Positions 9,625 to 31,815 of a DNA stretch of 35,439 nt are shown piece by piece. Below the pieces are notes generated by a model. It had not been told where the DNA came from. It saw only the letters and a list, made by a program, of their open reading frames with translations, and did no database searches. The position numbers and the translations under genes were made by a program. Numbering within the stretch: position 1 is the first letter of the stretch; every line of letters begins with the position of its first letter. The DNA is from Acidimicrobiales bacterium (GTDB taxonomy: Bacteria; Actinomycetota; Acidimicrobiia; Acidimicrobiales; VFJN01), in NCBI GenBank assembly GCA_030681555.1, contig JAUXRW010000111.1:1-35439 (forward strand). Direction: 5' to 3'.

Positions 9625-10242
9625 GTGAAGATCCGGCGGGCCGTGCCCACGGCATCCAGCGGCGCCGTGGATCCCGCCGCCGCGGCGAGCAGCGACCTCG
9701 ATGGGTCGCTGCTCGTCCGCGCGCGCACCGACCCGGACGCGTTCCACGCCCTCTACCGCCGCAACCACGACACGTTGCTGCGGCACTTCATGCGGCTCAC
9801 CGGCTCGGCCCACACGTCGGCCGAGCTGGCCGCAGAGACGTTCGCCCAGGCCCTCGCCTGCGTCGATCGCTACGACCCTGCCAAGGGCAACGGCACCGCC
9901 TGGCTGTTCGGGATCGCCAACCACCAGTTCCACTCGTTCCTACGGCGGGGCGACGTCGCCCGCCGGTACCGATCCAGGCTCGGCATCACCACGCCCACCA
10001 CCACCGAGGACGACATCGAGCACATCGAGGCCCTGGCCGACATCGAGGAGTTGCTCCCCCAGCTCAACGCGGCGCTCGCCCAGCTCAGCACCGGCGTGCG
10101 GGCGGCCGTGGAGCTCCGGGTCGGGCACGACCTCCCCTATGCCGAGGTGGCCGCCCGCCTGGGGTGCACGGTGGGCAGCGCGCGGGTGCGGGTGGCGCGC
10201 GGCCTCCGCAGCCTGAACGTCGCGATGCGGGAGGCCGGATGA
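9625..10242 (+). CDS. ECF-type RNA polymerase sigma factor
   Basis: FHALYRRNHDTLLRHFMRLTGS, AAETFAQAL, WLFGIANHQFHSFLRR, LRVGHDLPYAEVAARLGCTVGSARVRVARGLRSL (sigma2 and sigma4). Confidence 0.88.
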   Translation: MKIRRAVPTASSGAVDPAAAASSDLDGSLLVRARTDPDAFHALYRRNHDTLLRHFMRLTGSAHTSAELAAETFAQALACVDRYDPAKGNGTAWLFGIANHQFHSFLRRGDVARRYRSRLGITTPTTTEDDIEHIEALADIEELLPQLNAALAQLSTGVRAAVELRVGHDLPYAEVAARLGCTVGSARVRVARGLRSLNVAMREAG

Positions 10243-11003
10243 GCGCGCCCTTCGTCGACGCCCTCGGCGACGAGTTGCGGGCCGCAGCCACCCGGCGCGT
10301 CGCGGCAGTGGCGAACGGCCGTCGTCGCCGGGCCGGGCGGGCCGGAGCGCTCCTGGCTTCGGGCGCCTTGGGCGCAATCGTGCTCCTCGGGCTGGTCCAC
10401 CCGCCACCGGCGAAGGCCGACGTGCGCGTCGAGCACCTCGGCGGACGCGTCCACGTCACCCTCGTCGACGTCGAGCAGCGCGCCGAGCGGATCGAGGCGG
10501 AGCTGCGGGAGGCAGGCCTCGATGTGTCCGTGGTCGCCGTGCCCGTCGGGCCCTCGGCGGTCGGACGCTTCGTCGGCCACGTGGCCGACCGGCTGCCGCC
10601 GGAGCTCACCATGGTCGACGGTGGGCGGTCCACCTTCGCAGGCTTCTCGGTGCCCGAGGGGTGGGCCGGCCAGCTCGACCTGCAGGTCGGGCGCGTCGCC
10701 CGCGCCGGCGAGACCTATGCGGCGTTCTCCGATGCCCTCGCCCCGGGGGAGCCCCTGCAGTGCACCCAGGTGCTAGGACGCCCGGCCGTCGAGGTCGGCG
10801 CCGAGATCCAGCGACGGGCGCTGGAGCCGGCCTTCCTCGCTGTGGGTGACGGGCCGGCCCTCCGCGTCGATGCCGCCAACCTGCGGGGCAGCGGGCGAGC
10901 CCGCTGGTTCGTGACCGGGGTGGACGCCATCTCGCCGCAGGACCTGCTCGTGCGCATCGGGCCAGAGCCCCCCGCCCCGGCCAGCGAAGACCGCTCGTGC
11001 TGA
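10239..11003 (+). CDS. Single-pass membrane protein, candidate anti-sigma factor lacking an obvious zinc motif
   Basis: ATGA overlap with the sigma stop; basic N-terminus followed by AGALLASGALGAIVLLGLV TM segment. Confidence 0.65.
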   Translation: MSAPFVDALGDELRAAATRRVAAVANGRRRRAGRAGALLASGALGAIVLLGLVHPPPAKADVRVEHLGGRVHVTLVDVEQRAERIEAELREAGLDVSVVAVPVGPSAVGRFVGHVADRLPPELTMVDGGRSTFAGFSVPEGWAGQLDLQVGRVARAGETYAAFSDALAPGEPLQCTQVLGRPAVEVGAEIQRRALEPAFLAVGDGPALRVDAANLRGSGRARWFVTGVDAISPQDLLVRIGPEPPAPASEDRSC

Positions 11004-14860: not shown

Positions 14861-15796
14861 TCAGGCGTGGAGGTGGAGGCGGACGATCTGCTCGTCGGGC
14901 AGCACGCGGAGCTGCACGAGGTCGCACAGCTGGTGCATCAGCCAGAGGCCCCGTCCGCCGAACCGTTCGGTGGACGGCCGTCGGCGACCGGCTAGGGGAT
15001 CGCAGATGCGGCCCTTGTCGCGGAACTCGAAGATGAGCGCGCCCGCCTCGATCCACATCGCCATGGAGCCCGAGCCGCCGCCGTGACGGATGCAGTTCGT
15101 AGCCGCCTCGGTGACCGCGAGCACGGCGTCGTCGCAGCGGGCTGCGGTGAGGCCGACCTCATGGCCTGCGGCTGCGGCGCGCTGGCGGAGCATTCGCAGC
15201 TCGTCCACGCCGAAGTGCACCACCTGGGCGTGGGCGGGCGCGGGCGGCAGCGGCGTTCCGATCCAGTCGGGCACGGCGTCCCAGTACGCGCTGCTCGGCT
15301 CGGCGCCGTGGACGCTGCTCACGGTCGGGTGGTTCCGATGGGCCTCGTCGATGACCACCTCGGGCAGCACCCGCGTGTCGTAGGGGCACAGCAGCGTGAA
15401 CCCGAACGCGTCGGCGAAGGCCACGTTGAGCAGCGCCTCGTGCCGCTCGCACTCCACGAGCTGGTCGGGGGTGCGCTCGCTCCAGATCGGCTCGCCGATT
15501 CCTCTGGCGGGGCGGCCCTCCGCGACGAACGGGTCGGCGAAGTCCGCCCAGGCGGGGATGATCCACGCCGGGTTCCGCCCCATCTGGTCCATCCGCACGA
15601 AGTGGAGCTCGTCGGAGGCCACCCGGGCGAAGTTCGGCTCGATCAGCTCGAGGCGCGACGGGGGCACGGCCACGAGCACGGGCTCCCCGGCGTCGAGCCC
15701 CTCGGTGATGAACGCCGTCGTGCGGGTGATGTACTCCTCGTCGCTCCCGTAGAGGAAGGCGTCGTGGACGAACGGGCGGGGCGTCATGAGGCTCAT
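14861..15796 (-). CDS. RsbA-like anti-sigma regulator: MEDS sensor domain plus HATPase_c_2 kinase domain
   Basis: HDAFLYGSDEEYITRTTAFITEGLDAGEPVLVAVPP (MEDS); AVTEAATNCIRHG, FEFRDKG, GGRGLWLMHQLCD (N and G boxes). Confidence 0.85.
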   Translation of the reverse strand: MSLMTPRPFVHDAFLYGSDEEYITRTTAFITEGLDAGEPVLVAVPPSRLELIEPNFARVASDELHFVRMDQMGRNPAWIIPAWADFADPFVAEGRPARGIGEPIWSERTPDQLVECERHEALLNVAFADAFGFTLLCPYDTRVLPEVVIDEAHRNHPTVSSVHGAEPSSAYWDAVPDWIGTPLPPAPAHAQVVHFGVDELRMLRQRAAAAGHEVGLTAARCDDAVLAVTEAATNCIRHGGGSGSMAMWIEAGALIFEFRDKGRICDPLAGRRRPSTERFGGRGLWLMHQLCDLVQLRVLPDEQIVRLHLHA

Positions 15797-17490
15797 GGCC
15801 GGCCCGTCCCAGGGGACGGTACGGGCGCTCCCGCATCGTGACCATTCCGGGGGACCGCCATGGCGCCAGGGTACGCGAGCGACGGTGGGGAGTTCGAAGC
15901 GCGGCGGGCCAGGGCGCTACGGAGCCGTCGTCCCCGGTCGTGCCAGATCGCAGCCCGAGCGGCGTTCGCGCCGCAGGCGCCGTGCACGGAACCGCCCGGG
16001 TGGGCCGAGGCCGAGCCGAGGAACAGCCCCGCGATGGGGGTCTCTGGGCGGGCGAGGCCCGGTACGGGCCGGAAGATGAGCTGTTGATGGAGCTGGGAAG
16101 AGCCGCCGCCGATGTCGCCACCGACCAGCGAGGGGTTCGCGCTCTGCAGGTCGGCCGGCCCCTGCACGTGACGGGCCATCACCGCCGACCGGAACCCCGG
16201 CGCGTGGGCCTCGAGCCGGTCCTCCATGCGCTCCACGAAGCGGTCGAGGGCGGGCCCGATCAGGAGTCCGGTGGCGTCGATCTGGCCGCCCGCGTCGTTG
16301 ACGATGTGCTGCGGGACGTGGGTGTAGGCCCAGAGCGACTCGGTGCCCGCCGGGGATCGGGTGGGATCGCTCGTCGTCATCTGTCCGACGAGCAGGAACG
16401 GCTTGGCCGGGATCTGCCCCATGGCGAGCTCCGCCGCGGTGAGGGTGAGCTCGTCGAGTGAGTCGGCGATGTGAACGGTGCCAGCTCCCCGCAGCCCGGG
16501 GTCGCTCCACGGCACCCGCTCCCGCAGCGCCCAGTTGACCTTGACCGTGGCGTGCGCACGGTGGAACCGGCGCAGCCCGGCTCGGAACGCGACCGGGAGG
16601 TCGTCGGGATCGACCAAGTGATCGTAGAGCACCTGAGCATCGCACGCGGCGATGACGGCTCGGCGCGCCGCGATCGGCCCGGCCCCCGTGTGCACGACGG
16701 CGGCCCGACCGTTGCTCACCTCGATGCGCTCGACGGGGCGGCGGCACCGGAGCACCCCTCCGGCCTGGCTCAGGCGGTCGACGAGCGCCGCGGTGATCTG
16801 CCCCGCCCCTCCGACGGGCACGGGGAAGCCGACCGTCTGGGCCAGGCCGCAGAGCATCCAGCCCAGCAGGGCGCTCGGGGCCGCTTCCGGGGGAACGTCG
16901 GCGTGCAGAGCGTTGCCTGCCAGCAGCAGCGTGGGGTCCGGCCCGCCGAAGCGCTCCTCGCCCAGGCGCCGAACCGGGAGGATGGCGAGGCGGGCCAGGT
17001 CGAACACCTCGGTGCGGGCTGCGGCGGCGAGGCGGAGCCCGGCCCGCACGGGCGGGAACGGCCCGAGCAGTGCGCTCAGCATCTGGGCGCCGAACCGGTC
17101 CCACGACGCTGCCAGCTCCAGCCACGCCTTGCCGTCGCCACGGTGGGCTCGGTCCAGCCCGTCGGCGGTCAGCGAGGCGTTGCGGTGGAGGAGGACGGCC
17201 GGACCGTGCGCTGCTGCATGCCCGAGCACCACCGGGGCGTGGGCCCACCGCAGGCCGTGCTCCTGGAGGCCGAGCCGCGCCATGACGGGCGACGCCGCGG
17301 TCATCGGGTAGAACGCGGAGAAGAGATCCGTCTGGAACCCGGGGGCGGTGGTCTCCGCGCTGCGCACCGCACCGCCGGGGGCTTCGGCGGCATCGACGAC
17401 CACGACCTCCCAGCCGGCGTCGGCGAGGTCGTTGGCCGCCACCAGGCCGTTGTGGCCTGCGCCGATGACGACCGCGTCGACCGACTGCAT
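15793..17490 (-). CDS. CrtI/PYROXD2-like FAD-dependent oxidoreductase
   Basis: DAVVIGAGHNGLVAANDLADAGWEVVVVDAAEAPGGAVRS (dinucleotide-binding) and GLFLGSASAHPGGSVHGACGANAA C-terminal motif; ATG at 17490. Confidence 0.9.
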   Translation of the reverse strand: MQSVDAVVIGAGHNGLVAANDLADAGWEVVVVDAAEAPGGAVRSAETTAPGFQTDLFSAFYPMTAASPVMARLGLQEHGLRWAHAPVVLGHAAAHGPAVLLHRNASLTADGLDRAHRGDGKAWLELAASWDRFGAQMLSALLGPFPPVRAGLRLAAAARTEVFDLARLAILPVRRLGEERFGGPDPTLLLAGNALHADVPPEAAPSALLGWMLCGLAQTVGFPVPVGGAGQITAALVDRLSQAGGVLRCRRPVERIEVSNGRAAVVHTGAGPIAARRAVIAACDAQVLYDHLVDPDDLPVAFRAGLRRFHRAHATVKVNWALRERVPWSDPGLRGAGTVHIADSLDELTLTAAELAMGQIPAKPFLLVGQMTTSDPTRSPAGTESLWAYTHVPQHIVNDAGGQIDATGLLIGPALDRFVERMEDRLEAHAPGFRSAVMARHVQGPADLQSANPSLVGGDIGGGSSQLHQQLIFRPVPGLARPETPIAGLFLGSASAHPGGSVHGACGANAARAAIWHDRGRRLRSALARRASNSPPSLAYPGAMAVPRNGHDAGAPVPSPGTGRP

Positions 17491-17945
17491 CAGGCCACGG
17501 CCGGCTCTCGCTCCGCGGCGCGCACGATCTGCTCGAGCACCTGCTGGGCCTCCGCCCCGGCTCGAGCGGCCAGGCCGAGCCGACCGGCCAGCCGACCCAC
17601 GGGGCCGAACGGCATCTTGTACCGCATGGTGAGGCACACCTCGGTGCCCCCCGCATGCTCGGCCAGCGTCTCGTCCATCTCGACGGAGACGCCCGGGAGC
17701 AGCTTGCCGGACAGGGCGATCCGCCGTTCGGGCTCGAAGCGCTCGACCCGCCAACGCGACGAGAACGAACGACCGGCGACGACGACGGTCTGGGTGAACT
17801 GGTCGCCTACCCCGCTCAGCTGTGCCGGACCCTCCACCGCCGTCGTGCTCGGCGACCATGCCTCCAGCTGCCCCACGTCGAGGAGCAGCGCCCAGACCCG
17901 GGCCGGCGGCACCCCGGCGATCGAGCAGCGGCGGATCTCGGTCAT
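17490..17945 (-). CDS. SRPBCC family protein
   Basis: VPPARVWALLLDVGQLEAWSPSTTAVEGPAQLSGVGDQF, START-like fold pattern; TGATG coupling to the next gene. Confidence 0.8.
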   Translation of the reverse strand: MTEIRRCSIAGVPPARVWALLLDVGQLEAWSPSTTAVEGPAQLSGVGDQFTQTVVVAGRSFSSRWRVERFEPERRIALSGKLLPGVSVEMDETLAEHAGGTEVCLTMRYKMPFGPVGRLAGRLGLAARAGAEAQQVLEQIVRAAEREPAVA

Positions 17946-18418
17946 GATCCGCCCGTGCCGGTCGTTCCGTTGCCGTCGCGCTCCTCCAGGTAAGCGCTGA
18001 GCCGCCGCAGTGACCCGGCATTTCGGGCGTGCAGCACCGGGCGCAGCACCGGGGTGAGTGCGGCGGCCGGGCCGGTGGGCTTCTCCGAGAAGCGGATCTC
18101 CGAGCCCTTCGGGCTGGGTAGCACCAGGATCTCGACATTCGCGTGGAAGATCCCCGCCCGGACGTGGAGTCCGAGGCGATGGGGCGGATCGGCGTCGATG
18201 GCCTCGGTGGAGTCGTCGACGGTGACCCCGTCGGCCGGGCCGACGGAGTGGTCAAAGCTGCTCCCCGGCTTGGGGAACTCGGGGTCGACCCCGCGGATCC
18301 GCTGGGCGCCGACCAGCCAATCGGGGTAGGTCGTGGGGTCCGAGATCACCCGGTAGACGGCCTCCGGCGAGGCCTCCACCTCCGTGCGGGCCTCGGAGGG
18401 CGCGAACAATCCGGCCAT
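17942..18418 (-). CDS. SRPBCC family protein
   Basis: VEASPEAVYRVISDPTTYPDWLVGAQRIRGVDPEFPKPGSSFDH; ATGA overlap with the next gene. Confidence 0.85.
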   Translation of the reverse strand: MAGLFAPSEARTEVEASPEAVYRVISDPTTYPDWLVGAQRIRGVDPEFPKPGSSFDHSVGPADGVTVDDSTEAIDADPPHRLGLHVRAGIFHANVEILVLPSPKGSEIRFSEKPTGPAAALTPVLRPVLHARNAGSLRRLSAYLEERDGNGTTGTGGS

Positions 18419-18505
18419 AGGTCACGTACTTGCCCACTCGTGCTGCGAAGTATCCTCGGAGCGGAGGGACGGTCGTCCGTCGTCCAGAACGGGTAGGTCG
18501 GCCGC

Positions 18506-19306
18506 GTGACCGACTCGGATGTGCACCAGACCGTCCTCATCACCGGGGCCAGTTCGGGCATCGGCTTGGCCTGCGTCGAGGCCGTCGCCGAGCGGTGCGC
18601 CGATGTCGTCGCCACGGTTCGCAAGAACGACGACGCGTCCATGGTCCGCGAACGGCAGCGACGGCTGCGGCACCCGGTCCGCACGGCGTTGCTCGACCTC
18701 GGGAACGACGACCAGATCCGCTCGGTGATCGACGAGCACCAACCGGACGTGGTGGTCAACAACGCCGGGGACGCCCTGCTCGGCCCGGTCACGGACGCCG
18801 ACGTCGACAGGGTCACGGCCCAGTTCCGGCAGCACGTGATCGGGCCGATGCAGGTCACGTCGGCCGCCCTGCCCCACATGCGACGCAAGGGCCGGGGGCG
18901 GATCGTGAACGTCTCGTCCGCGTTGGCGAGGACTGCGGTTCCGATGACCGGGTGGTACGCCGCGGCCAAGGCGGCCCAGGCGATGGTGACGGCCGCCCTC
19001 CGGGCCGAGGTCGCGGAGGAGGGCATCGACGTCGTCTTGGTCGAGCTGGGAGCCGTCGACACGCCGGCGTGGGACGCCGCCACCGACCCTGAGGGTCCGG
19101 CCGGCGAGGAGTGGGCGCGCGCCACCCGCCTGGTGCGGCCGTTCTTCTCCGACGCCGCCACGGCGGCCGCGACCATCGCCGATGCCGTGTGCGATCCGAA
19201 CCCCCGCAACCTCTACAGGGTGGGGTTCGGCACCGAGCTGCTGGCGCTTTCCGGCCGGGTGCCGGCGGCCGTGCGGGATCGGATGCTCCGGCACATGTTC
19301 ACATGA
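18506..19306 (+). CDS. SDR family oxidoreductase
   Basis: VLITGASSGIGLACVEA, VVNNAG, GWYAAAKAAQAMV; GTG start. Confidence 0.9.
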   Translation: MTDSDVHQTVLITGASSGIGLACVEAVAERCADVVATVRKNDDASMVRERQRRLRHPVRTALLDLGNDDQIRSVIDEHQPDVVVNNAGDALLGPVTDADVDRVTAQFRQHVIGPMQVTSAALPHMRRKGRGRIVNVSSALARTAVPMTGWYAAAKAAQAMVTAALRAEVAEEGIDVVLVELGAVDTPAWDAATDPEGPAGEEWARATRLVRPFFSDAATAAATIADAVCDPNPRNLYRVGFGTELLALSGRVPAAVRDRMLRHMFT

Positions 19307-19369: not shown

Positions 19370-19684
19370 ATGGGACAGCCGTTCGAAGTCCACGTCGACG
19401 CCGACGGGTTCCCGTCCCGAGTCACGGTCAGCGGCGACCTCGACCTCGATGGCGGCGACGTGCTGGAGGGGGCTGTCGCCCCGCTGCTGTCGCCCGGGTC
19501 CCGGGTCGAGATCGACCTTCGACAGGTCGACTTCCTCGACTCGAGCGGCCTCGCCGCGCTGGTGTCGCTCTCGCAGCTCGCCGAGGAGGCGCCCGCCTAC
19601 CTCGTGCTGCTCGAGCCGTCGGCGCGTGTGCGTCACGTGATGGAGATCACGAGCACCGAGTCGCTGTTCTCCTTCGCTGCCTGA
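19370..19684 (+). CDS. STAS domain protein (anti-sigma factor antagonist type)
   Basis: VTVSGDLDLDGGDVLE...VEIDLRQVDFLDSSGLAALVSLSQ (DSSG phosphosite motif). Confidence 0.88.
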   Translation: MGQPFEVHVDADGFPSRVTVSGDLDLDGGDVLEGAVAPLLSPGSRVEIDLRQVDFLDSSGLAALVSLSQLAEEAPAYLVLLEPSARVRHVMEITSTESLFSFAA

Positions 19685-19695
19685 CCACCGGTGCC

Positions 19696-21792
<2,097 letters not shown>

Positions 21793-21831
21793 GGTGATGT
21801 TCGCTCCGAGACGTGAGGAGGGAGAGGTCGA

Positions 21832-23559
21832 TCAGTCGGCGGGTCGGTGCCAGAGGACGACCGTATCGACGGGCAGGGCGGTGGAACCAACGCCCACCTG
21901 GGTTTCGGGCGATGCGGCCAGCACCTCGGCGCCCTCGTCGACCTCGACGCAGTGCTCCTGCGGCGAGAGGTTGGCAGCCAGAAAGACGGGCCCGCGGCGC
22001 ACGACGAGGAGCCCGTCCTCCCACGTGACCTCGGTGGGTACTCCGGGGTCGGTGATCGCCGCCACGCGACGGCGGCAGGCCAGCAGCGTGCGGTGCCACT
22101 CGAGGAGGCGGCGGTGGGCGGGTCGGTCGAGCTCCGACCAGTCCAGCCTGGACCGGTCGAAGGTGGCCGGGTCCTGCGGGTCGGGGACGTCTTCCGGCGC
22201 CCAGCCGAAGGACGAGAACTCCGCCCTGCGCCCCTCGCGCACGGCATCGGCCAACTCGGGCTCCCCGTGGTCGGTGAAGTACTGGAACGGCGTCGATGCG
22301 GCCCATTCCTCGCCCGCGAAGAGCATCGGGACGAACGGCGTGGTCAACAGCAGCGCCGCAGCGATCTCGAGGCGGCCGGGGCTGACCAGCGCCGCCGTGC
22401 GCTCACCGGTGGCCCGGTTGCCCACCTGGTCGTGGTTCTGCGTGCACACGACGAACCGCGACGGCGCGAGGCCGGCGGGCGAGCGGCCCTGCGCCCGCCC
22501 ACGCGACGCGGACCAGTCGCCGTGGTGCACCCATGCGTGCCGCAGCGCGGTCGGGAGGCTTTCGCCCACGTCGACGAAGTCCTGGTAGTACCCGTCGCCC
22601 TCGCCCGTCAGCGCTACGTGCACCGCGTGGTGCCACTCGTCGGCCCAGGCAGCGTCGAGGCCGTAGCCCCCCGCCTCACGGGGGCGCACGATGCGGGGAT
22701 CGTTGGTGTCGTTCTCCGCGATCACGAACAAGGGACGGCCCTGCTGCACCGCTAGGGCCTCGACGGCCACGCCGACCTGCTCGAGGACGTGGGTGGGCGT
22801 GGGGTCCACGATGGCGTGGACGGCGTCGAGGCGGAGGCCGTCGCAGTGGTAGTCGCGCAGCCACAGGAGGGCGTTGTCGACGACGAACCGGCGCACCTCG
22901 TCGGCGCCGACGTCGTCGAAGTTCACCGCCTCGCCCCACGGTGTGTGGTGGCGCTCGGTGAAGTACGGGCCGAACGCAGGCAGGTAGTTCCCGCTCGGCC
23001 CCAGGTGGTTGTAGACGACGTCCATCACGCAGCCGAGGCCGTGCCGATGGCAGGCGTCGACCAGGCGCTTCAGGCCCTCCGGTCCGCCGTACCGGTGGTG
23101 GGGCGCGAAGAGGTCGACGCCGTCGTAGCCCCAGCCACGGTCCCCGGGGAACTCGGCCACGGGGAGTAGCTCGATGGCATCGATCCCGAGGTCGACGACG
23201 TGGGACAGGTGCTCGATCACGCCCTCGAACGTGCCGCCGTCGGAGAAGGTGCCGACGTGGAGCTCGTACAGGACGGCGCCGGCGAGCGGCACGCCGCGCC
23301 ACGCGGCGTCGCTCCAGGCGAACGCGTCGTGGTCGACCACTGCGGACAGCCCGTGCACGCCGTCCGGCTGGTGCATGGAGCGGGGATCGGGACGGGGTTC
23401 CCCGCCATCCAGCGAGAACCCGTAGCGGCTCCCGGGCCTGGCCTGGGGGACCTCGGCCCGCCACCAACCACCCGCCCGCTGCTCCATCGGGTAGCGCACG
23501 CCGTCGACGACGACTCCCACCGCCGTGGGCGTCGGGGCCCACACCTCGAACCGGTGCAT
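21832..23559 (-). CDS. treZ: Malto-oligosyltrehalose trehalohydrolase TreZ
   Basis: MHRFEVWAPTPTAVGVVVDG, ELHVGTFSDGGTFEGVIEHL, DVVYNHLGPSGNYLPAFGPYFTERHHTPWGEAVNFD, CTQNHDQVGNRA; ATG 23559. Confidence 0.95.
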   Translation of the reverse strand: MHRFEVWAPTPTAVGVVVDGVRYPMEQRAGGWWRAEVPQARPGSRYGFSLDGGEPRPDPRSMHQPDGVHGLSAVVDHDAFAWSDAAWRGVPLAGAVLYELHVGTFSDGGTFEGVIEHLSHVVDLGIDAIELLPVAEFPGDRGWGYDGVDLFAPHHRYGGPEGLKRLVDACHRHGLGCVMDVVYNHLGPSGNYLPAFGPYFTERHHTPWGEAVNFDDVGADEVRRFVVDNALLWLRDYHCDGLRLDAVHAIVDPTPTHVLEQVGVAVEALAVQQGRPLFVIAENDTNDPRIVRPREAGGYGLDAAWADEWHHAVHVALTGEGDGYYQDFVDVGESLPTALRHAWVHHGDWSASRGRAQGRSPAGLAPSRFVVCTQNHDQVGNRATGERTAALVSPGRLEIAAALLLTTPFVPMLFAGEEWAASTPFQYFTDHGEPELADAVREGRRAEFSSFGWAPEDVPDPQDPATFDRSRLDWSELDRPAHRRLLEWHRTLLACRRRVAAITDPGVPTEVTWEDGLLVVRRGPVFLAANLSPQEHCVEVDEGAEVLAASPETQVGVGSTALPVDTVVLWHRPAD

Positions 23560-26237
23560 CACTGCGTCGGAGGCAGGTCGCGGGCCAGGACGGCCACGGG
23601 GAAGTCGACGAGCAGCTCGCCGACCGGGTGGGGACCGCCGGAGCGGAGCTCGCCGGTGAGGACGTCCTCCCACGCGCCGTCCGCCAGCGTGACGCTCGTG
23701 TCCCCCCAGTCGTCGCCGAGGCCGGTGAGGAGGCGCGGCACGACGACCGTCAGCGCGCCGCGGGTGGACGCCACGACGTGGCGGGCCTTCGCTCCCGTGG
23801 CCGCGATGGCTGCATGATCACGCCCGCCGTAGCGAGCCGGAACGCGGCGACGGTCTCGAAGGAGGCGGCTGAGCAGCCACAGCTTCGTGCCGCCCGCGTC
23901 GAGGTGGTGCAGCGCCTCCTTCGGCGTCGCCTGCAGCAGCTGCTGGAGGAGCGCGGCGCGGCGCTCGTGATCGACCGGCCGTCGGTTGTCGGGGTCGACC
24001 AGGCTGTGGTCCCACAGCTCGGTGCCCTGGTAGACGTCGGGCATGCCCGGTGCCGTGGCCAGGAGGGTCACCTGCGAGAGGGCCGTGAGCTGCCCCAGCT
24101 CGACGATGCGATGCTCCTCGAGGAAGGCCTCGAGCTGCTCCACGAACCGGTGATCACCCACGATGCCCTCGACGAAGGCGGCTAGCGCCTCGTCGAACCG
24201 CGGGTCGGGGTTCGTCCACGAGGTGTGCTGCTTCGCCTCCTTCGCCGACTTCGCCATCGCTGCGACGAGCCGGTCGGGCTCGATCGGCCACGTCCCCACG
24301 AGCGTCTGGTACACCAGCATCTCGATCGTGCGGTCCGGGGCGGCGTGCCGGCGGTGGCGCTCGTTGTGGTCCGCCCATCGCGCCGTCGCCGCGCCCCAGG
24401 CCTCGGGGAGCTCGGAGAGCAGGTGGATGCGGGCCCGGACGTCGGCGCTGCGCTTCGTGTCGTGGGTCGACAGCGTCAGCATCGTGTCGGGCCAGTGCGC
24501 TGCGAGGTGCGCGCAGTGCTCGTGGTAATCGTCCACCGGTCGCCCGAACGCGGACGGCTCGCCGCCCACCTCGTTGAGCGAGACGAGCCGGTTGTACCGG
24601 TAGAAGGCGGTGTCCTCCACGCCCTTGGCCATCACGGGCGCGCTCAGCTGCTGGAAGCGAGCGGCCAGCTCCACCTCCTGCAGCGCACCCTCCCCCTCCA
24701 GAAGGAGGGTGCGCTGCACGAGGTCGAGCAGCTCGCGGTCGAGGTCGGGCCGGAGGGCGGCGGCCGCGTCGACAGCGGCCTTGACGTGGGCGCGGTCGTC
24801 GTCGCTCGGCGACGCGCCCTCCACCACGTAGGTGCGGTAGACGGCGAACGCAGCGAGCACCTCTCGGAGGACGTCTCGCAGCTCACGGCGCGTGTGGTCC
24901 CGATGGCGGCGGCGGCTCGCGCAGACCTCGGCCAGCAGGCCGGTGAGCCGCTCGGTCTCGGCCGCCAGCTCCTCGCCCATGACGTGGTGCTTCGCGCTGT
25001 GGGCGATCTCGTCGAAGGTCCCGGGGTGCCCCACGAACGCGTCGTAGGCAGCGGTCATCGCCTCCTCGCCGGCGTCGTCGACGAACAGGCGGTCGACCGC
25101 GATCAGGTGGTCGTAGCCCGAGGTGCCCTGCACGGGCCAAGACTGCGGGAGCCGCTCGCCCTCCTGCAGGATCTTCTCCACCACGATGTAGGCGTCGGGG
25201 GCGAGGGCACGGAGCCGACGGAGGTACTCGGCGGGATCGCGGAGCCCGTCGATGTGGTCGATCCGGAGCCCGGTGACCCGACCGGTGTCGACGAGCTCCG
25301 CCAGGAGCCGGTGGCTGTCGCGGAAGACGTCTTCGTCCTCCACCCGGAGCCCGACGAGGGTCGTGATGCTGAAGAACCGGCGGTAGTCGAGCTCCTCGGC
25401 GGCGGTGCGCCAGTGGGCCAAGCGGTAGTTCTGGCGGGCGAGGAGCGTCTCGAAGGCATCGGGGTCGCCGGCGATGGCCGCGAGCTCGTCGTCGATCGCG
25501 TCGGCAACAGCGGGTTCCAGCTGGGTCAGTGCGGCGAGGCGCTGCCGCAGCTCGACCTTGCCGCGGTGGCGGGCCTCGATGGCTTCGCGCCCGTCATCGG
25601 ACGCGTGGGGCAGGGCACCGAACCCGACGGCGATCTCGTCCAGCTCCGGGGAACCAGCCCGCTGGGCCGCGGACGACAGCAGCGCGTCGACGCTGCGGGG
25701 TGAGAGCGGCAGCTCGTGGTCGGCGTAAGTGGCGACGAACGCACCGCCCCGGCGCTGCAAGCCGAGCTCGCCGGCGTCGAGGAGGCGTCCGACGTGGTCA
25801 CCGAGGATGGGGGCGAGCACGGAGGGCCCGGCCGCCCGGTCGGTCCCCCAGTCGATGTCGAAGTACTTCGCGAAGCGGCTGGCCGGCCCGTCCTCCAGGA
25901 CATCCCACCACCACCGGTTGTGGCTGCCGGCGAGGGCCATGTGGTTCGGCACGGTGTCCACCACGATCCCGAGCCCGTGCTCCTCGAGCGCGGTGGCCAT
26001 GCGGGCGAACGCAGGCGCGCCGCCGAGGTCCTCGCTCAGCTGGTTGTGGTCCACCACGTCGTAGCCGTGCGTGCTGCCCGGCGTGGCCTGCAGGACGGGC
26101 GAGCAGTAGAGGTGGCTCACGCCGAGCGAAGCCAAATAGGGCGCCAGCGCCGCTGCGTCGTCGAAGGTGAAGCGGGCGTGCAGCTGGACGCGGTAGGTCG
26201 AGGTGGGCCAGGCGGCCGGACGGACACCGCCGGTCAT
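23559..26237 (-). CDS. treY: Malto-oligosyltrehalose synthase TreY
   Basis: STYRVQLHARFTFDDAAALAPYLASLGVSHLYCSPVLQATPGSTHGYDVVDHNQLSEDLGG, VDTVPNHM; ATG 26237. Confidence 0.96.
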   Translation of the reverse strand: MTGGVRPAAWPTSTYRVQLHARFTFDDAAALAPYLASLGVSHLYCSPVLQATPGSTHGYDVVDHNQLSEDLGGAPAFARMATALEEHGLGIVVDTVPNHMALAGSHNRWWWDVLEDGPASRFAKYFDIDWGTDRAAGPSVLAPILGDHVGRLLDAGELGLQRRGGAFVATYADHELPLSPRSVDALLSSAAQRAGSPELDEIAVGFGALPHASDDGREAIEARHRGKVELRQRLAALTQLEPAVADAIDDELAAIAGDPDAFETLLARQNYRLAHWRTAAEELDYRRFFSITTLVGLRVEDEDVFRDSHRLLAELVDTGRVTGLRIDHIDGLRDPAEYLRRLRALAPDAYIVVEKILQEGERLPQSWPVQGTSGYDHLIAVDRLFVDDAGEEAMTAAYDAFVGHPGTFDEIAHSAKHHVMGEELAAETERLTGLLAEVCASRRRHRDHTRRELRDVLREVLAAFAVYRTYVVEGASPSDDDRAHVKAAVDAAAALRPDLDRELLDLVQRTLLLEGEGALQEVELAARFQQLSAPVMAKGVEDTAFYRYNRLVSLNEVGGEPSAFGRPVDDYHEHCAHLAAHWPDTMLTLSTHDTKRSADVRARIHLLSELPEAWGAATARWADHNERHRRHAAPDRTIEMLVYQTLVGTWPIEPDRLVAAMAKSAKEAKQHTSWTNPDPRFDEALAAFVEGIVGDHRFVEQLEAFLEEHRIVELGQLTALSQVTLLATAPGMPDVYQGTELWDHSLVDPDNRRPVDHERRAALLQQLLQATPKEALHHLDAGGTKLWLLSRLLRDRRRVPARYGGRDHAAIAATGAKARHVVASTRGALTVVVPRLLTGLGDDWGDTSVTLADGAWEDVLTGELRSGGPHPVGELLVDFPVAVLARDLPPTQ

Positions 26238-28405
26238 CGGCGCGGGGCGAGGAACGTGACGGACAGCGGGGGGAGTGCCAGGACCGCGCTGTGCGAGCGT
26301 CCTTGCATGGGGATCTCGTCGGCCTCGAGGTCCTCCTTCCACCCACCGCCCCCGCCGAAGCGGCTGTCGTCCGTGGTCAGGAGCGCGCCCCACCGACCGC
26401 CGCCGTCGAGGCCGATGCGGTAGCCGTGCTCCGCGATGCCGGAGAGGTTTGCGACGCACACGACGAGGTCGTCGGTGCCCGGAGCCCGCCGCTCGAAGGC
26501 CAGCGTGCTCTGCTCCGCCCGGTCGACATCGAGCCAGGCGAAGCCGGCTGGGTCGCCGTCACCGGCGTAGAGCGCAGGGTGCCGGGCCTCGACCTCGTTG
26601 AGGCACCGGACGAGCTCGGTCACCCCGGCGTGCCGCGCATCCTGGAGGAGGTCCCAGTCGAGGCTGCGGTCGTGCGACCACTCGTGCTGCTCGGCGAGCT
26701 CTGCGCCCATGAACAGCAGCTGCTTGCCGGGGTGGGCCCACATCCACGCGTACAGCGCCCGCAGGTTGGCGAAGCGGTCGTCGTCGCTCCCGGGCATCTT
26801 GCCGAGCAGCGGCCGCTTCAGGTGGACGACCTCGTCATGGCTCAGCGGCAGCACGAAGTGCTCCGACCAGGCGTACGTGAGCCCGAACGTCAGCTGGTTG
26901 TGGTGCCACGGCCGGTGGATCGGGTCGTGCGACCAGTACTCCAGCGAGTCGTGCATCCAGCCCATGTTCCACTTGTGCGTGAAACCCAGGCCGCCTGCGT
27001 CGACGGGCCGGCTCACGCCGTTCCAGGCGGTCGACTCCTCCGCGATCGTGAGCACGCCCGGGTGGGCGCGGTGGACGACGGTGTTGAGCTCCTGCAGGAA
27101 GGAGACGGCGTCGAGGTCCTCGTGGCCGCCAAGCGCGTTGGGCGACCACTGCCCGTGGTCCCGTGAGTAGTCGAGGTACAGCATCGATGCGACGGCGTCG
27201 ACGCGCAGCCCGTCGACGTGCAGCTCGCCCAGCCAGAACAGCGCGTTGGCGACGAGGAAGTTGCGCACCTGGCGGCTCGAGTGGTCGAACTCCAGGGTGC
27301 CCCAGTCGGGGTGCTCGGCACGCCGGGGATCGGCGTGCTCGTAGAGGGGGGTGCCGTCGAACCGTGCGAGACCCCACTCGTCCTTCGGGAAGTGCGCCGG
27401 TACCCAGTCGACGATGACGCCGAGGCCGCGCTGGTGGAGGTGGTCGACGAACCACCGGAACTCGTCGGGGTCGCCGAAGCGGGACGTCGGTGCGTAGAAG
27501 CCGGTGACCTGGTAGCCCCAGGACGGCTCGTAAGGGTGCTCCGCCGGGGGCATCAGCTCGACGTGGGTGAACCCGAGGGAGCAGGCGTGGTCGGCCAGCT
27601 GCGAGGCCAGCTCGCGGTAGGTGAGGAAGCGACCGTCCTCGTGCCGACGCCAGGAGCCGAGGTGCACCTCGTAGACGCTCATGCGATCGCGCAGGGGATC
27701 CAGGCCGCGGCGCTGCTCCATCCACGCCTGGTCGCCCCACTCGTGGCGACTGTCGAAGACGATGGAGGCCATGCCGCCGCTGTGCTCGGAGAACTGCGCC
27801 ATCGGGTCCATGTGGCGCACCCGGCGACCGTCGGCGCCCTCGACGTCGAACTTGTAGACCGCGCCGCGCGCGACATGGGGCACGAACCCCCACCACACGC
27901 CGCCGTCGAGGCGCTCCAGCGGATGCGCGCCGGTGTCCCATCCGGTCCACTCGCCGACCACCCACACGGCCCGTGCGTTCGGTGCCCACACCGCGAAGGC
28001 CGTGCCTTCGACGCCCTCCCACGTTCCGGGGTGCGCACCCAGGACGTCCCAGAGGCGCTCGTGGCGGCCCTCGCCGATCAGCCAGAGGTCGTCGGCCGTG
28101 GGCCGCAGCGAACGGCCGAGGGGCGCGACGACAGCGGCGGTGGTGGCTGCTTCGGAGGCGGGCTCCCCCACCGCTGCCTTCTTCACCGCAGCCTTGCGAC
28201 CGGCGGCCGTCTTCCTGCTGCGGGGCTGCTTCGTCGCGGCAACCTTTCGCGGGGCCGGCGCCTTCTTGGAGCCCTTCTTCGCCGCAGCCTTCGCGGGGGC
28301 GGGGGCTTCTGGACCCGAGCTCGCGCCGGGCGAAGCAGCCGCCTCCGCAGCGGCGACGAGCTCCGGATCGGGCGCATCGGGCACCGGATCCCGGCTGGAG
28401 TTCAC
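26234..28405 (-). CDS. glgB: 1,4-alpha-glucan branching enzyme GlgB with Lys/Ala-rich N-terminal extension
   Basis: VLGAHPGTWEGVEGTAFAVWAPNARAVWVVGEW, VIVDWVPAHFPKDEWGLARFDGTPLYEHADPR, HVDGLRVDAVASMLYLDYSR, LPLSHDEVVHLK; GTG start overlapping the mak stop. Confidence 0.96.
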   Translation of the reverse strand: MNSSRDPVPDAPDPELVAAAEAAASPGASSGPEAPAPAKAAAKKGSKKAPAPRKVAATKQPRSRKTAAGRKAAVKKAAVGEPASEAATTAAVVAPLGRSLRPTADDLWLIGEGRHERLWDVLGAHPGTWEGVEGTAFAVWAPNARAVWVVGEWTGWDTGAHPLERLDGGVWWGFVPHVARGAVYKFDVEGADGRRVRHMDPMAQFSEHSGGMASIVFDSRHEWGDQAWMEQRRGLDPLRDRMSVYEVHLGSWRRHEDGRFLTYRELASQLADHACSLGFTHVELMPPAEHPYEPSWGYQVTGFYAPTSRFGDPDEFRWFVDHLHQRGLGVIVDWVPAHFPKDEWGLARFDGTPLYEHADPRRAEHPDWGTLEFDHSSRQVRNFLVANALFWLGELHVDGLRVDAVASMLYLDYSRDHGQWSPNALGGHEDLDAVSFLQELNTVVHRAHPGVLTIAEESTAWNGVSRPVDAGGLGFTHKWNMGWMHDSLEYWSHDPIHRPWHHNQLTFGLTYAWSEHFVLPLSHDEVVHLKRPLLGKMPGSDDDRFANLRALYAWMWAHPGKQLLFMGAELAEQHEWSHDRSLDWDLLQDARHAGVTELVRCLNEVEARHPALYAGDGDPAGFAWLDVDRAEQSTLAFERRAPGTDDLVVCVANLSGIAEHGYRIGLDGGGRWGALLTTDDSRFGGGGGWKEDLEADEIPMQGRSHSAVLALPPLSVTFLAPRR

Positions 28406-29790
28406 CGCGCCGCTCCGGCGTGCGTGAGCCGGTCGATGCGTTGCAGCGGGATCCAGACCTGGTCCGGTCGGTAGCCGAGCTCGTACCCGACCTCGTAGAC
28501 CGCCTTGTCCAGCTCGAACGCAGCGAGGACCGCTTGCCGGTGCTCGGGCTCGACGGGCAGCAGTGCGTCGATCCCGTCGACGCCGAAGTACCCGTCGAGG
28601 AAGGCCTGGCGGCAGTGCTCGTCCCAGGCCTGCGCCGCCTCTGCGAGGGCGGGATCGAGGGCGGGGTCGGGGTCACCGATGGTCCACTGGGCGAGGCCTG
28701 TTGCTGCGGCGTAGTGGAACGAGCGCAGCATGCCGGCGACGTCCCGGAGGGGCGAGGAGGTTGTGGCTCGTTCCTCGCGTCGGCGCGCCGGCTCGCCCTC
28801 GAAGTCGAGGACGTACCACCCCTCGTCGGCCAGCAGCACCTGCGCGAGGTGGAGGTCGCCGTGGATGCGCTGGTCCACCCCGACGTCGTCGAGTTCGGCC
28901 AGCTCGCGGTAGCGCTCGGCGACGGACGCGACGTCCAGGCGGTGGTCGCCGAGGTCGGCGCCGCTGTCTGCGAGCTGGCGGAGCTGCCCGTCCATCTCAG
29001 CGGCCCATCGGGCGGGATCACCGGGGCGGGTGCCCCACGCGTCGGCGATCGCCAGGTGGAGCCCCGCCAGCACCGCCCCCAGCCGCCTCGCCTCGGGTCC
29101 GAAGTCGCCACCGGCCTCGTCCGGGGCGCAGCCGGCGTCGAGCAGGTCGCGCACCGAGCTGGCGGCGAGCTCCCAACCCTCGATCGATCCGGAGAGGAAC
29201 CGTCGGAGCACCGCGAGGTCCGTGTCGTCCCGCCGGAGTTCGGCGAGGGGCGGGAGCTGGTGCTCGAAGCCCTGCTCGGCCAGCTTGCGCGGGATCTCCA
29301 CGTCGGGGTTGGGGCCCGGCTCGACCCGGCGGAAGACCTTCAGGATCTTCTTGCTGTCGTAGACGATCGAGGTGTTGGAGTGCTCCAGGACGAGGGGATG
29401 GTGCGTGCTCACCTCGGCGCCGGGATCCACGAGGTGCAGCACGTCGATCGCCAGCTCCGGATCGGCGAGGGCGTCGTACATGGCGACCGGCCCGCGGTCG
29501 CCCGGAACCACCGTCAGACGCCGGCGGTCGTCCCTCGGCAGGAACGAGGTGTCGTCAACCGGCCGCACGCCGATGAAGACCTGGTACGCCTGCGTGTCGG
29601 CGTCGTCGGCGAAGGCGACGTCCACGAGCGCCCAGACGAGGCCGGCGGCGGCGTCGTCCCGGACGACCTCGTGCCAGCGCAGGTCGATCGACCGGATGGC
29701 GCGGCCGTGCGCCCCGGACCACCGCTGTCGCGCGAGATGGGCGGGCAGGTGGTCGACGAGCAGCTGGGGGAGGCTGGCAAGAGGAATCAC
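28402..29790 (-). CDS. mak: Maltokinase
   Basis: ARQRWSGAHGR, QRIHGDLHLAQVLLADEGWYVLDFEGEPARRREERATTSSPLRDVAGMLRSFHYAA. Confidence 0.92.
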   Translation of the reverse strand: MIPLASLPQLLVDHLPAHLARQRWSGAHGRAIRSIDLRWHEVVRDDAAAGLVWALVDVAFADDADTQAYQVFIGVRPVDDTSFLPRDDRRRLTVVPGDRGPVAMYDALADPELAIDVLHLVDPGAEVSTHHPLVLEHSNTSIVYDSKKILKVFRRVEPGPNPDVEIPRKLAEQGFEHQLPPLAELRRDDTDLAVLRRFLSGSIEGWELAASSVRDLLDAGCAPDEAGGDFGPEARRLGAVLAGLHLAIADAWGTRPGDPARWAAEMDGQLRQLADSGADLGDHRLDVASVAERYRELAELDDVGVDQRIHGDLHLAQVLLADEGWYVLDFEGEPARRREERATTSSPLRDVAGMLRSFHYAAATGLAQWTIGDPDPALDPALAEAAQAWDEHCRQAFLDGYFGVDGIDALLPVEPEHRQAVLAAFELDKAVYEVGYELGYRPDQVWIPLQRIDRLTHAGAAR

Positions 29791-29838
29791 GTCTTGTGTC
29801 CCTTCCCACGCGGGCGGGCGCTGAACCCGCCGGCGCGG

Positions 29839-31815
29839 TCAGTGGGTGATGTGGAAGATGTGGGCGACCTGGCCGAGACCAGGATCGAGGCGGACGTAGC
29901 CGCTCTGGCCCCACCACTCGTACCTGGCCCCGTCGAGCTCGTCGAGCAGCTGCATCCGCCCGTCCCCGTGCAGGCCCATGGCGCCCCCGTCGAGCTGGAG
30001 GACCCCCTCCTGCGCGTTGTGCGGATCGAGGTTGACGACGCACAGCAGCAGGTCCTCGCCCGCTCGGCCGCGGCTGTACGCCAGCAGCTGCTCGTTGCCG
30101 GTGTCGTGGAAGCACACGTCGCTGAGCGACCACACGTCGCCGTGACGGCGCCGGACGCCGTTGAGCGTTCGCATGAGGGGCGCCAGCGTGGCCGGATCGG
30201 TGTAGTCGCGGTGCTTGAGCTCGTACTTCTCGGAGTGCAGGTACTCCTCGTTGGACTCGCTGGCCGGCTCGTTCTCGCAGAGCTCGTAGCCCGAGTACAC
30301 ACCATACGTGGGCACGAGCGTGGCGGCGAGGACGAGCCGCAGGGCGAAGGCCGACCGGGGTCCGTCGCGGAGCACCCCACCGAGGATGTCGGGTGTGTTG
30401 GGCCAGAAGGCCGGCCGCATGTAGTCGCTGAGCGGTCCGTGGCTCAGCTCGGTGACGTAGGTGCGGAGTTCCTCGGCCTCGTGGCGCCATGTGAAGTACG
30501 TGTAGCTCTGGCTGAACCCCACCTCCGCCAGCTTTGCCATCATGGGCGGCGTGGTGAAGGCCTCGGCCAGGAAGATCAGGTCGGGGTGCTGGCGGCGGAG
30601 GTCGTCCAGGAGCCAGGCCCAGAAGGCAAGCGGCTTGGTGTGGGGGTTGTCGACGCGGAAGATCCTCACGCCCTGACCGATCCAGTGGACGAGGACGTCC
30701 CGACAGGCCTCCCACAAGGCGACGCGATCCTCCTCGCGAGCCGGCCAGAACTCGATCGGGTGGATGTCCTGGTACTTCTTCGGCGGATTCTCTGCGTACC
30801 GGATCGACCCGTCGGGCCGCTGCTTGAACCACTCCGGGTGATCCCGCACCCAGGGGTGGTCGGGGCTGCACTGGAGCGCGTAGTCGAGCGCGATCTCGAG
30901 GCCGAGCTCGTCGGCGCGCCCGAGGAGCGCGGCGAAGTCGGCCTCGGAGCCGAGGTCGGGGTGGATGGCCGTGTGCCCGCCCTCCGGACCGCCGATGGCC
31001 CAAGGGCTCCCGCGATCGTCGGGCGCTGCGTGCAACGTGTTGTTCGGCCCCTTGCGGTGGCTCCGCCCGATCGGGTGGATGGGCGGCAGGTAGACGACGT
31101 CGAACCCGAGGTCGGCGACGTAGTCGAGGTGCTCGGCCGCACCCTTGAGGCCGCCGAACGACCTCGGGAACAGCTCGTACCAGGCGCCCACCGAGGCCGT
31201 GCGCCGATCGACCCACAGGGGGTGCGGCGCCGACTCGGAGCGCCGGGCGTCCGGGAGGGGACAGACCACGGACGCGACCGCGTCATCGAGGGCTGCGTTG
31301 AGGCGGTCGTCCACCGAGCGGTCGGCACGGCGCACGCCAGTGGCGGCGGCGCGGACGAGCTCGGCATCGGCCGTGGCGAGCTGGGCGGCAAGTTCCTCCA
31401 GGAGGAGCGCGCCCTCCTCGAGCTCGAGCTCCACGTCCTGCGCGGCGCCCGCCTTCACCTCGACCTCGTGCCGCCAGGTGGAGTACCGGTCGATCCACGC
31501 CTCCACGACGACCTCGTGCAAACCGAGCTGAACGGGTTCGATCGTGCCGCTCCATCGGCTCCGCTCTCCGGCCACGAGCGAGGCGACCTGCCACTCGTCC
31601 TGACCCACTGGCCGCCAGCGGACACGTGCGCCCAGGCGATCGTGCCCGTCGACGATCAGGACCGCCGACACGGTCAGAGGCGTGCCGGCCACGCCCTTGG
31701 CGGGGAAGCCCGCCGGCGTGCGCGGGCGGGCGTCGTCGATGACGATCGGGGACAGCAGCTGAGCGGCCGACGGAGGAGGCTCAGGGGGAGCCGCGGGGCG
31801 TCGAGGCATGCACAC
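29839..31815 (-). CDS. glgE: Alpha-1,4-glucan:maltose-1-phosphate maltosyltransferase GlgE
   Basis: GAWYELFPRSFGGLKGAAEHLDYVADLGFDVVYLPPIHPIGRSHRKGPNNTL, IRYAENPPKKYQDIHPIEFW, IFRVDNPHTKPLAFW, VYSGYELCEN. Confidence 0.96.
   Translation of the reverse strand: MCMPRRPAAPPEPPPSAAQLLSPIVIDDARPRTPAGFPAKGVAGTPLTVSAVLIVDGHDRLGARVRWRPVGQDEWQVASLVAGERSRWSGTIEPVQLGLHEVVVEAWIDRYSTWRHEVEVKAGAAQDVELELEEGALLLEELAAQLATADAELVRAAATGVRRADRSVDDRLNAALDDAVASVVCPLPDARRSESAPHPLWVDRRTASVGAWYELFPRSFGGLKGAAEHLDYVADLGFDVVYLPPIHPIGRSHRKGPNNTLHAAPDDRGSPWAIGGPEGGHTAIHPDLGSEADFAALLGRADELGLEIALDYALQCSPDHPWVRDHPEWFKQRPDGSIRYAENPPKKYQDIHPIEFWPAREEDRVALWEACRDVLVHWIGQGVRIFRVDNPHTKPLAFWAWLLDDLRRQHPDLIFLAEAFTTPPMMAKLAEVGFSQSYTYFTWRHEAEELRTYVTELSHGPLSDYMRPAFWPNTPDILGGVLRDGPRSAFALRLVLAATLVPTYGVYSGYELCENEPASESNEEYLHSEKYELKHRDYTDPATLAPLMRTLNGVRRRHGDVWSLSDVCFHDTGNEQLLAYSRGRAGEDLLLCVVNLDPHNAQEGVLQLDGGAMGLHGDGRMQLLDELDGARYEWWGQSGYVRLDPGLGQVAHIFHITH

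Follow-up and report, generated by a model that had tools for sequence, protein, structure and literature searches.

Two SRPBCC genes, a gene of a flavin adenine dinucleotide (FAD)-dependent oxidoreductase of the CrtI/CrtO/PYROXD2-like type (hereinafter the flavoenzyme) and a gene of an RsbA-family anti-sigma/serine-kinase protein overlap one another on the minus strand (positions 14861-18418) of a 35,439-nucleotide stretch of an Acidimicrobiales genome (assembly GCA_030681555.1, contig JAUXRW010000111.1; hereinafter the window). This arrangement raises the question of whether a general-stress regulator is built into a lipid-redox pathway or only lies next to it. The explanation that we regard as rather probable is that the SRPBCC and flavoenzyme genes form, together with a divergent gene of a short-chain dehydrogenase/reductase (SDR), a lipid-redox module often situated in general-stress islands, and that RsbA is a protein of the general-stress partner switch placed downstream of this module in this lineage. 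The contig holding the window is one (C10) of the 162 contigs of a genome that is 98% complete.

Conservation of the SRPBCC-flavoenzyme-SDR module

For the comparison, 38 flavoenzyme neighborhoods of the same class and 80 named loci, mostly from Streptomyces, Nocardioides, Mycobacterium, Actinomadura, Intrasporangiaceae and Pseudonocardiaceae, were collected, and 117 neighborhoods besides the window were scored; genes in the related loci were called by a simple codon-usage gene finder, and individual starts may be off. In 62 of the 117, a gene of the same subfamily as the first SRPBCC gene of the window (SRP1) directly adjoins the flavoenzyme gene. SRPBCC genes make up 67 of the 645 genes near the flavoenzyme (within three gene places) and none of the 1049 genes far from it (five or more places away; p about 1e-29), the corresponding numbers for SDR genes being 40 of 645 and 18 of 1049. 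The p-values and both comparisons are uncorrected for relatedness; nonetheless, the pattern covers many families and several gene orders. An SRPBCC gene lies upstream of the flavoenzyme on the same strand in 47 neighborhoods, and in 26 of these the two genes overlap by 4 or 8 bases, versus 25% among all same-strand pairs of the related loci (300 of 1205 junctions), which we count in favor of the module. Overlapping same-strand junctions are, however, commonplace, also in the window (8 of 25, or 32%), and for this reason the overlaps were dropped as a proof of a four-gene unit: what goes beyond chance is the conservation of the SRPBCC gene beside the flavoenzyme, not the overlaps themselves. 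The gene order of the window, with the SDR gene divergent from SRP1, the second SRPBCC gene (SRP2) and the flavoenzyme, is kept in a genome of another family (G051), whose junctions are likewise ATGA and TGATG, and the members of the SRP1 subfamily have the common signature WVVGA...WP..G..FHH.

Judging from these neighborhoods, SRP1, SRP2, the flavoenzyme and the divergent SDR are a genuine, old and conserved actinobacterial module, which can probably be described as an uncharacterised, stress-related lipid-redox set. The tie between START-like proteins and a phytoene-desaturase-like FAD enzyme, proposed in the original prediction, is thereby supported by the neighborhood conservation, by the overlapping genes and by an SDR-SRPBCC fusion described below. 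As to the four-gene linkage assumed there, its first three genes do stay together in relatives, whereas RsbA occurs in no other flavoenzyme neighborhood, and the divergent SDR had been omitted although it belongs to the conserved module. The set recurs in Streptomyces, Nocardioides, Mycobacterium, Actinomadura, Acidimicrobiales-type and other genomes. No name for it was found in the literature searched, nor did searches on the module, on bacterial PYROXD2 and on anti-sigma proteins with MEDS domains bring up anything on this combination.

In the window, both SRPBCC genes exceed the gathering score of PF10604 (27.4): SRP1 (17942-18418, minus strand, 158 aa), whose subfamily is found beside the flavoenzyme across Actinobacteria, with 47 bits, and SRP2 (17490-17945, minus strand, 151 aa), whose orthologues are present in few close relatives only (genomes G051 and G268, loci L049 and L115), with 56 bits. 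This domain is the one common to the Polyketide_cyc2 SRPBCC/START proteins. The Rv0910 type II toxins were tried as an identity for the two genes and rejected at 29 and 53 bits, compared with the NF047960 cut-off of 100; SRP1 and SRP2 differ from this family in having their own subfamily signature, and no antitoxin gene was seen. The flavoenzyme gene (15793-17490, minus strand, 565 aa; PF01593 and PF01266) follows, and then the RsbA gene (14861-15796, minus strand, 311 aa), a neighbor which is probably outside the functional module. The reading frames and the junctions, namely ATGA at 17942-17945, TGATG at 17488-17492 and ATGA at 15793-15796, agree with those described earlier. The SDR gene (18506-19306, plus strand, 266 aa; PF00106, 125 bits) is separated from SRP1 by a divergent promoter region of 87 bp (18419-18505), which was read directly; a scan for sigma-70 promoters and terminators yielded nothing informative at the G+C content of this DNA. 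The SRPBCC and flavoenzyme genes are presumably co-transcribed.

In Humibacillus xanthopallidus, a 509-aa SDR-SRPBCC fusion protein is encoded directly upstream of the flavoenzyme (L236:8430-9959), and the equivalent place in Actinomadura rifamycini is occupied by an alpha/beta hydrolase-SDR fusion (L214:8196-9953).

RsbA and its overlap with the flavoenzyme

The fourth gene encodes a MEDS domain (PF14417, 102 bits) followed by a HATPase_c_2 domain (PF13581, 58 bits), which is the architecture of RsbA. It passes the full-length RsbA model NF041045 with 320.9 bits at a cut-off of 210, and its ATP-site residues E230, N234, D260, G262 and G283 are invariant among relatives. In this full-length match and in the kinase-type residues it is similar to the RsbA family and to the partner-switching kinases RsbW/SpoIIAB. 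Among solved structures, no relative was found by single sequence, and RsbW was matched weakly by profile. It is the sole MEDS protein and the sole full RsbA of the source genome. None of the 117 other flavoenzyme neighborhoods has an RsbA gene beside the flavoenzyme, none of about 35 RsbA loci of relatives contains a flavoenzyme or SRPBCC gene, and partner-switching genes show no enrichment near the flavoenzyme (6 of 645 near vs. 17 of 1049 far, p = 0.28). HATPase-only genes adjoining the flavoenzyme in G020 and G016 were considered as RsbA and rejected, being convergent and, with 122-140 aa, too short for a MEDS domain. In about a third of the 35 or so RsbA loci, a gene of a SpoIIE/RsbU phosphatase, a MEDS-STAS or STAS protein or SigB is found no more than 1.5 kb away, and in a genome of the same family (G004) RsbA closes a run of two STAS genes (RsbR/RsbS-like) and a single gene each for HATPase (RsbT-like), SpoIIE and RsbU-like proteins, with SigB-type genes nearby. 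Unlike these relatives, the RsbA gene of the window lies downstream of metabolic genes and has no adjoining sigma factor or phosphatase gene.

The overlap itself can be traced to the flavoenzyme, which extends for 55 residues past its last conserved motif (the median being 28). Its codons 531-565, corresponding to a poorly conserved extension, have a G+C content at third codon positions (GC3) of 0.71, compared with 0.90 in the body of the gene, every 35-codon stretch of which reaches at least 0.80; in the AlphaFold model (predicted local distance difference test score 84.8) residues 539-565 fall below 50. The ATGA overlap with RsbA exists because the flavoenzyme carries this derived, unstructured, low-GC3 C-terminal extension, which looks like a recent read-through into a former leader. 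The RsbA of the window is an ordinary representative of a family already known; only here does it adjoin the flavoenzyme. An anti-sigma sensor hard-wired to the redox module, as had been predicted, is not supported, in view of the absence of RsbA from other flavoenzyme neighborhoods, the lacking enrichment of partner-switching genes, the other partners found at the RsbA loci of relatives and the derived nature of the overlap; as found, the RsbA link is of local interest only.

The candidate partners of RsbA are two STAS proteins, encoded at 19370 and 32571, and the sole SigBFG factor of the source genome, whose gene on contig C144 is accompanied by a STAS gene of its own and by a HATPase-like gene unmatched by Pfam. 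The nearer STAS gene (19370-19684, plus strand; PF13466, 60 bits) encodes a possible RsbA partner, an anti-anti-sigma protein with the motif FLDSSGL that includes a candidate phosphorylatable serine; in G051 it is not conserved beside the module. In four other loci (L076:6111-6908, also L077, L071 and L276), MEDS-STAS protein genes lie directly upstream of MEDS-HATPase RsbA genes, which suggests that sensor domains are matched on anti-sigma and anti-anti-sigma proteins.

The flavoenzyme family

The nearest solved folds of the flavoenzyme are the gamma-carotenoid desaturase 4rep (CrtD-type) and CrtI 4dgk. The fold, the FAD-binding motif and the conserved C-terminal HPGG.VHG..G.NAA are shared with the CrtI/CrtD/CrtO carotenoid desaturases and ketolases; the likeness to PYROXD2 oxidoreductases is our assumption. 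In contrast to CrtO, CrtI and CrtD, the flavoenzyme scores below the curated cut-offs (213 bits vs. 1000 for the CrtO model NF045689, with a match covering nearly the full length, and 96 bits vs. 238 for the CrtI-family model TIGR02734), is found in genomes without phytoene synthase, and has SRPBCC and SDR proteins as its partners. The squalene/phytoene synthase family PF00494 is absent from 9 of the 38 carrier genomes, so that the co-occurrence expected of CrtO/CrtI does not hold; one of the nine is the one-contig genome G093, where the SRPBCC gene overlaps that of a 66%-identical flavoenzyme orthologue. It follows that the substrate need not be a carotenoid or a squalene derivative, and the carriers without phytoene synthase argue against naming the flavoenzyme as a carotenoid enzyme. 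The source genome itself does have a phytoene synthase; its gene lies on a contig (C81) other than that of the module, where it adjoins a distinct desaturase-like frame with a weak match. In the tree, the flavoenzyme clusters with those of G051, G268, G093 and G006, not with the same-genus copy included. A distant paralogue of the flavoenzyme (25% identity) is encoded five genes from the first copy in three genomes of one genus (L129:1870-3441, L130:13459-15027 and L131:8270-9808).

General-stress context

The 80 named loci, with 1.48 Mb in total, contain 15 SigB-type sigma factor genes within 10 kb of the flavoenzyme, compared with 1.8 expected, i.e., about 8-fold more, the expectation being derived from genome counts (226 in 180 Mb) in a density sample that includes the loci with hits; examples of SigB/SigF-type genes near the flavoenzyme are found in L158, L164, L184, L231 and L236. 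In Mycobacterium smegmatis, SigF controls the trehalose synthase, maltokinase and hemerythrin genes (PMC4694148). The window, which also includes genes of TreZ, TreY, GlgB, GlgX, maltokinase and hemerythrin, resembles this SigF/SigB general stress regulon in its trehalose/maltokinase and hemerythrin genes, as do the modules of other genomes in being rich in nearby SigB-type genes. It differs from it in that no SigB-type promoter was found for the window operon and the sigma factor gene is located on another contig. A general-stress island is more likely here than a product-sensing anti-sigma circuit.

In such an island the module could work as follows. The SRPBCC protein would bind a hydrophobic substrate and hand it over to the membrane-associated FAD enzyme, which would desaturate or oxidise it, and the SDR may interconvert alcohol and carbonyl groups on the compound handled by the FAD enzyme. 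As the SRPBCC-flavoenzyme module tends to sit in general-stress (SigB/SigF) islands, stress control may also be supposed for this organism. RsbA, whose position downstream of the flavoenzyme would have been acquired in this lineage, is predicted to bind a SigB-type sigma factor or to phosphorylate a STAS protein through its HATPase domain, its MEDS domain being a putative ligand sensor. The module would offer a dedicated pair of a hydrophobic carrier and a flavoenzyme for study, and since some carriers are cultivable, the question of the substrate is directly testable.

Alternative explanations

Several observations weigh against the explanation preferred here. About half of the flavoenzyme orthologues have no adjoining SRPBCC gene. 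The count of SigB-type genes includes related genomes without correction, though the hits come from several genera and lie at varied distances. The SigB-type promoter motif is weakly enriched upstream of the orthologues (11 of 113 vs. 43 of 1085, p = 0.014), and in the window neither a sigma-70 nor a SigB-type consensus, including the motif GTT-N-GGGTA, was found at 18419-18505 upstream of the operon. Finally, the ATGA overlap permits co-translation of RsbA with the flavoenzyme. This overlap on the same strand, the uniqueness of the MEDS protein in the genome and the STAS gene on the opposite side of the module would all fit the model of the original prediction, in which RsbA serves the SRPBCC/flavoenzyme pathway as a dedicated sensor: its MEDS domain would detect a substrate or product of this pathway, and a sigma factor would be released. 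We consider it very unlikely: the linkage is missing in all 117 other flavoenzyme neighborhoods and in the other RsbA loci, where RsbA has classical stress partners, the overlap stems from the derived extension, and the only SigBFG factor of the genome has STAS and HATPase-like genes of its own. A product-sensing circuit has, in sum, little support, and its elaborated version, in which the SDR-SRPBCC-flavoenzyme pathway produces or repairs a hydrophobic compound other than a carotenoid during stress, and RsbA exerts feedback on it in this lineage by reading this compound through its MEDS domain and switching a SigB-type sigma factor, appears most improbable.

RsbA and the STAS protein encoded at 19370 could, alternatively, be a divergent partner-switching pair, between the genes of which the module was inserted, so that RsbA rides on the module transcript and the stress coupling is positional only. 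The module is indeed bracketed exactly by these two genes, the last 35 or so flavoenzyme codons lack homology and are lower in GC3 than every other 35-codon stretch, resembling a former leader that came to be read through, and the flavoenzyme groups with those of other families (G051, G268, G093), not with same-genus copies. Yet no empty site and no synteny were found in the family members searched; the genes on the flanks, those of GlgX and a NuoF-like protein, have other neighbors in G004-G006, and GlgX is missing in G001-G003. We therefore hold such an insertion to be rather doubtful. As for the pathway itself, a carotenoid-modifying route of the CrtO/CrtI type, with the SRPBCC proteins as carotenoid carriers, could account for the closest folds, for the nearly end-to-end match to the CrtO model and for the phytoene synthase of the source genome; it is nevertheless unlikely, considering the scores well under both cut-offs, the carriers without squalene/phytoene synthase, among them G093 with its close orthologue and coupled SRPBCC gene, and the position of the phytoene synthase of the source genome on another contig near a different desaturase-like match.

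Neighboring genes

The glycogen/trehalose cluster of the window (19696-31692, minus strand) consists of genes of GlgX, TreZ, TreY, GlgB and maltokinase, the last gene being probably that of GlgE (a weak TreS-type match). A 4-alpha-glucanotransferase (GH77) gene is found near the flavoenzyme, and never far from it, in seven neighborhoods (L034, L040, L042, L043, L047, L115 and L197); in five of them it is directly divergent from the flavoenzyme. An ATP-dependent DNA ligase gene often comes after it, and a DUF72-like gene is located nearby. GlgX and the trehalose genes of the window lie on the side that matches the GH77 gene elsewhere. A sigma factor with Sigma-70 region 2 and region 4 domains (ECF-like) is encoded at 9625-11003, and the downstream gene, which overlaps it by 4 bases, may encode an anti-sigma factor.

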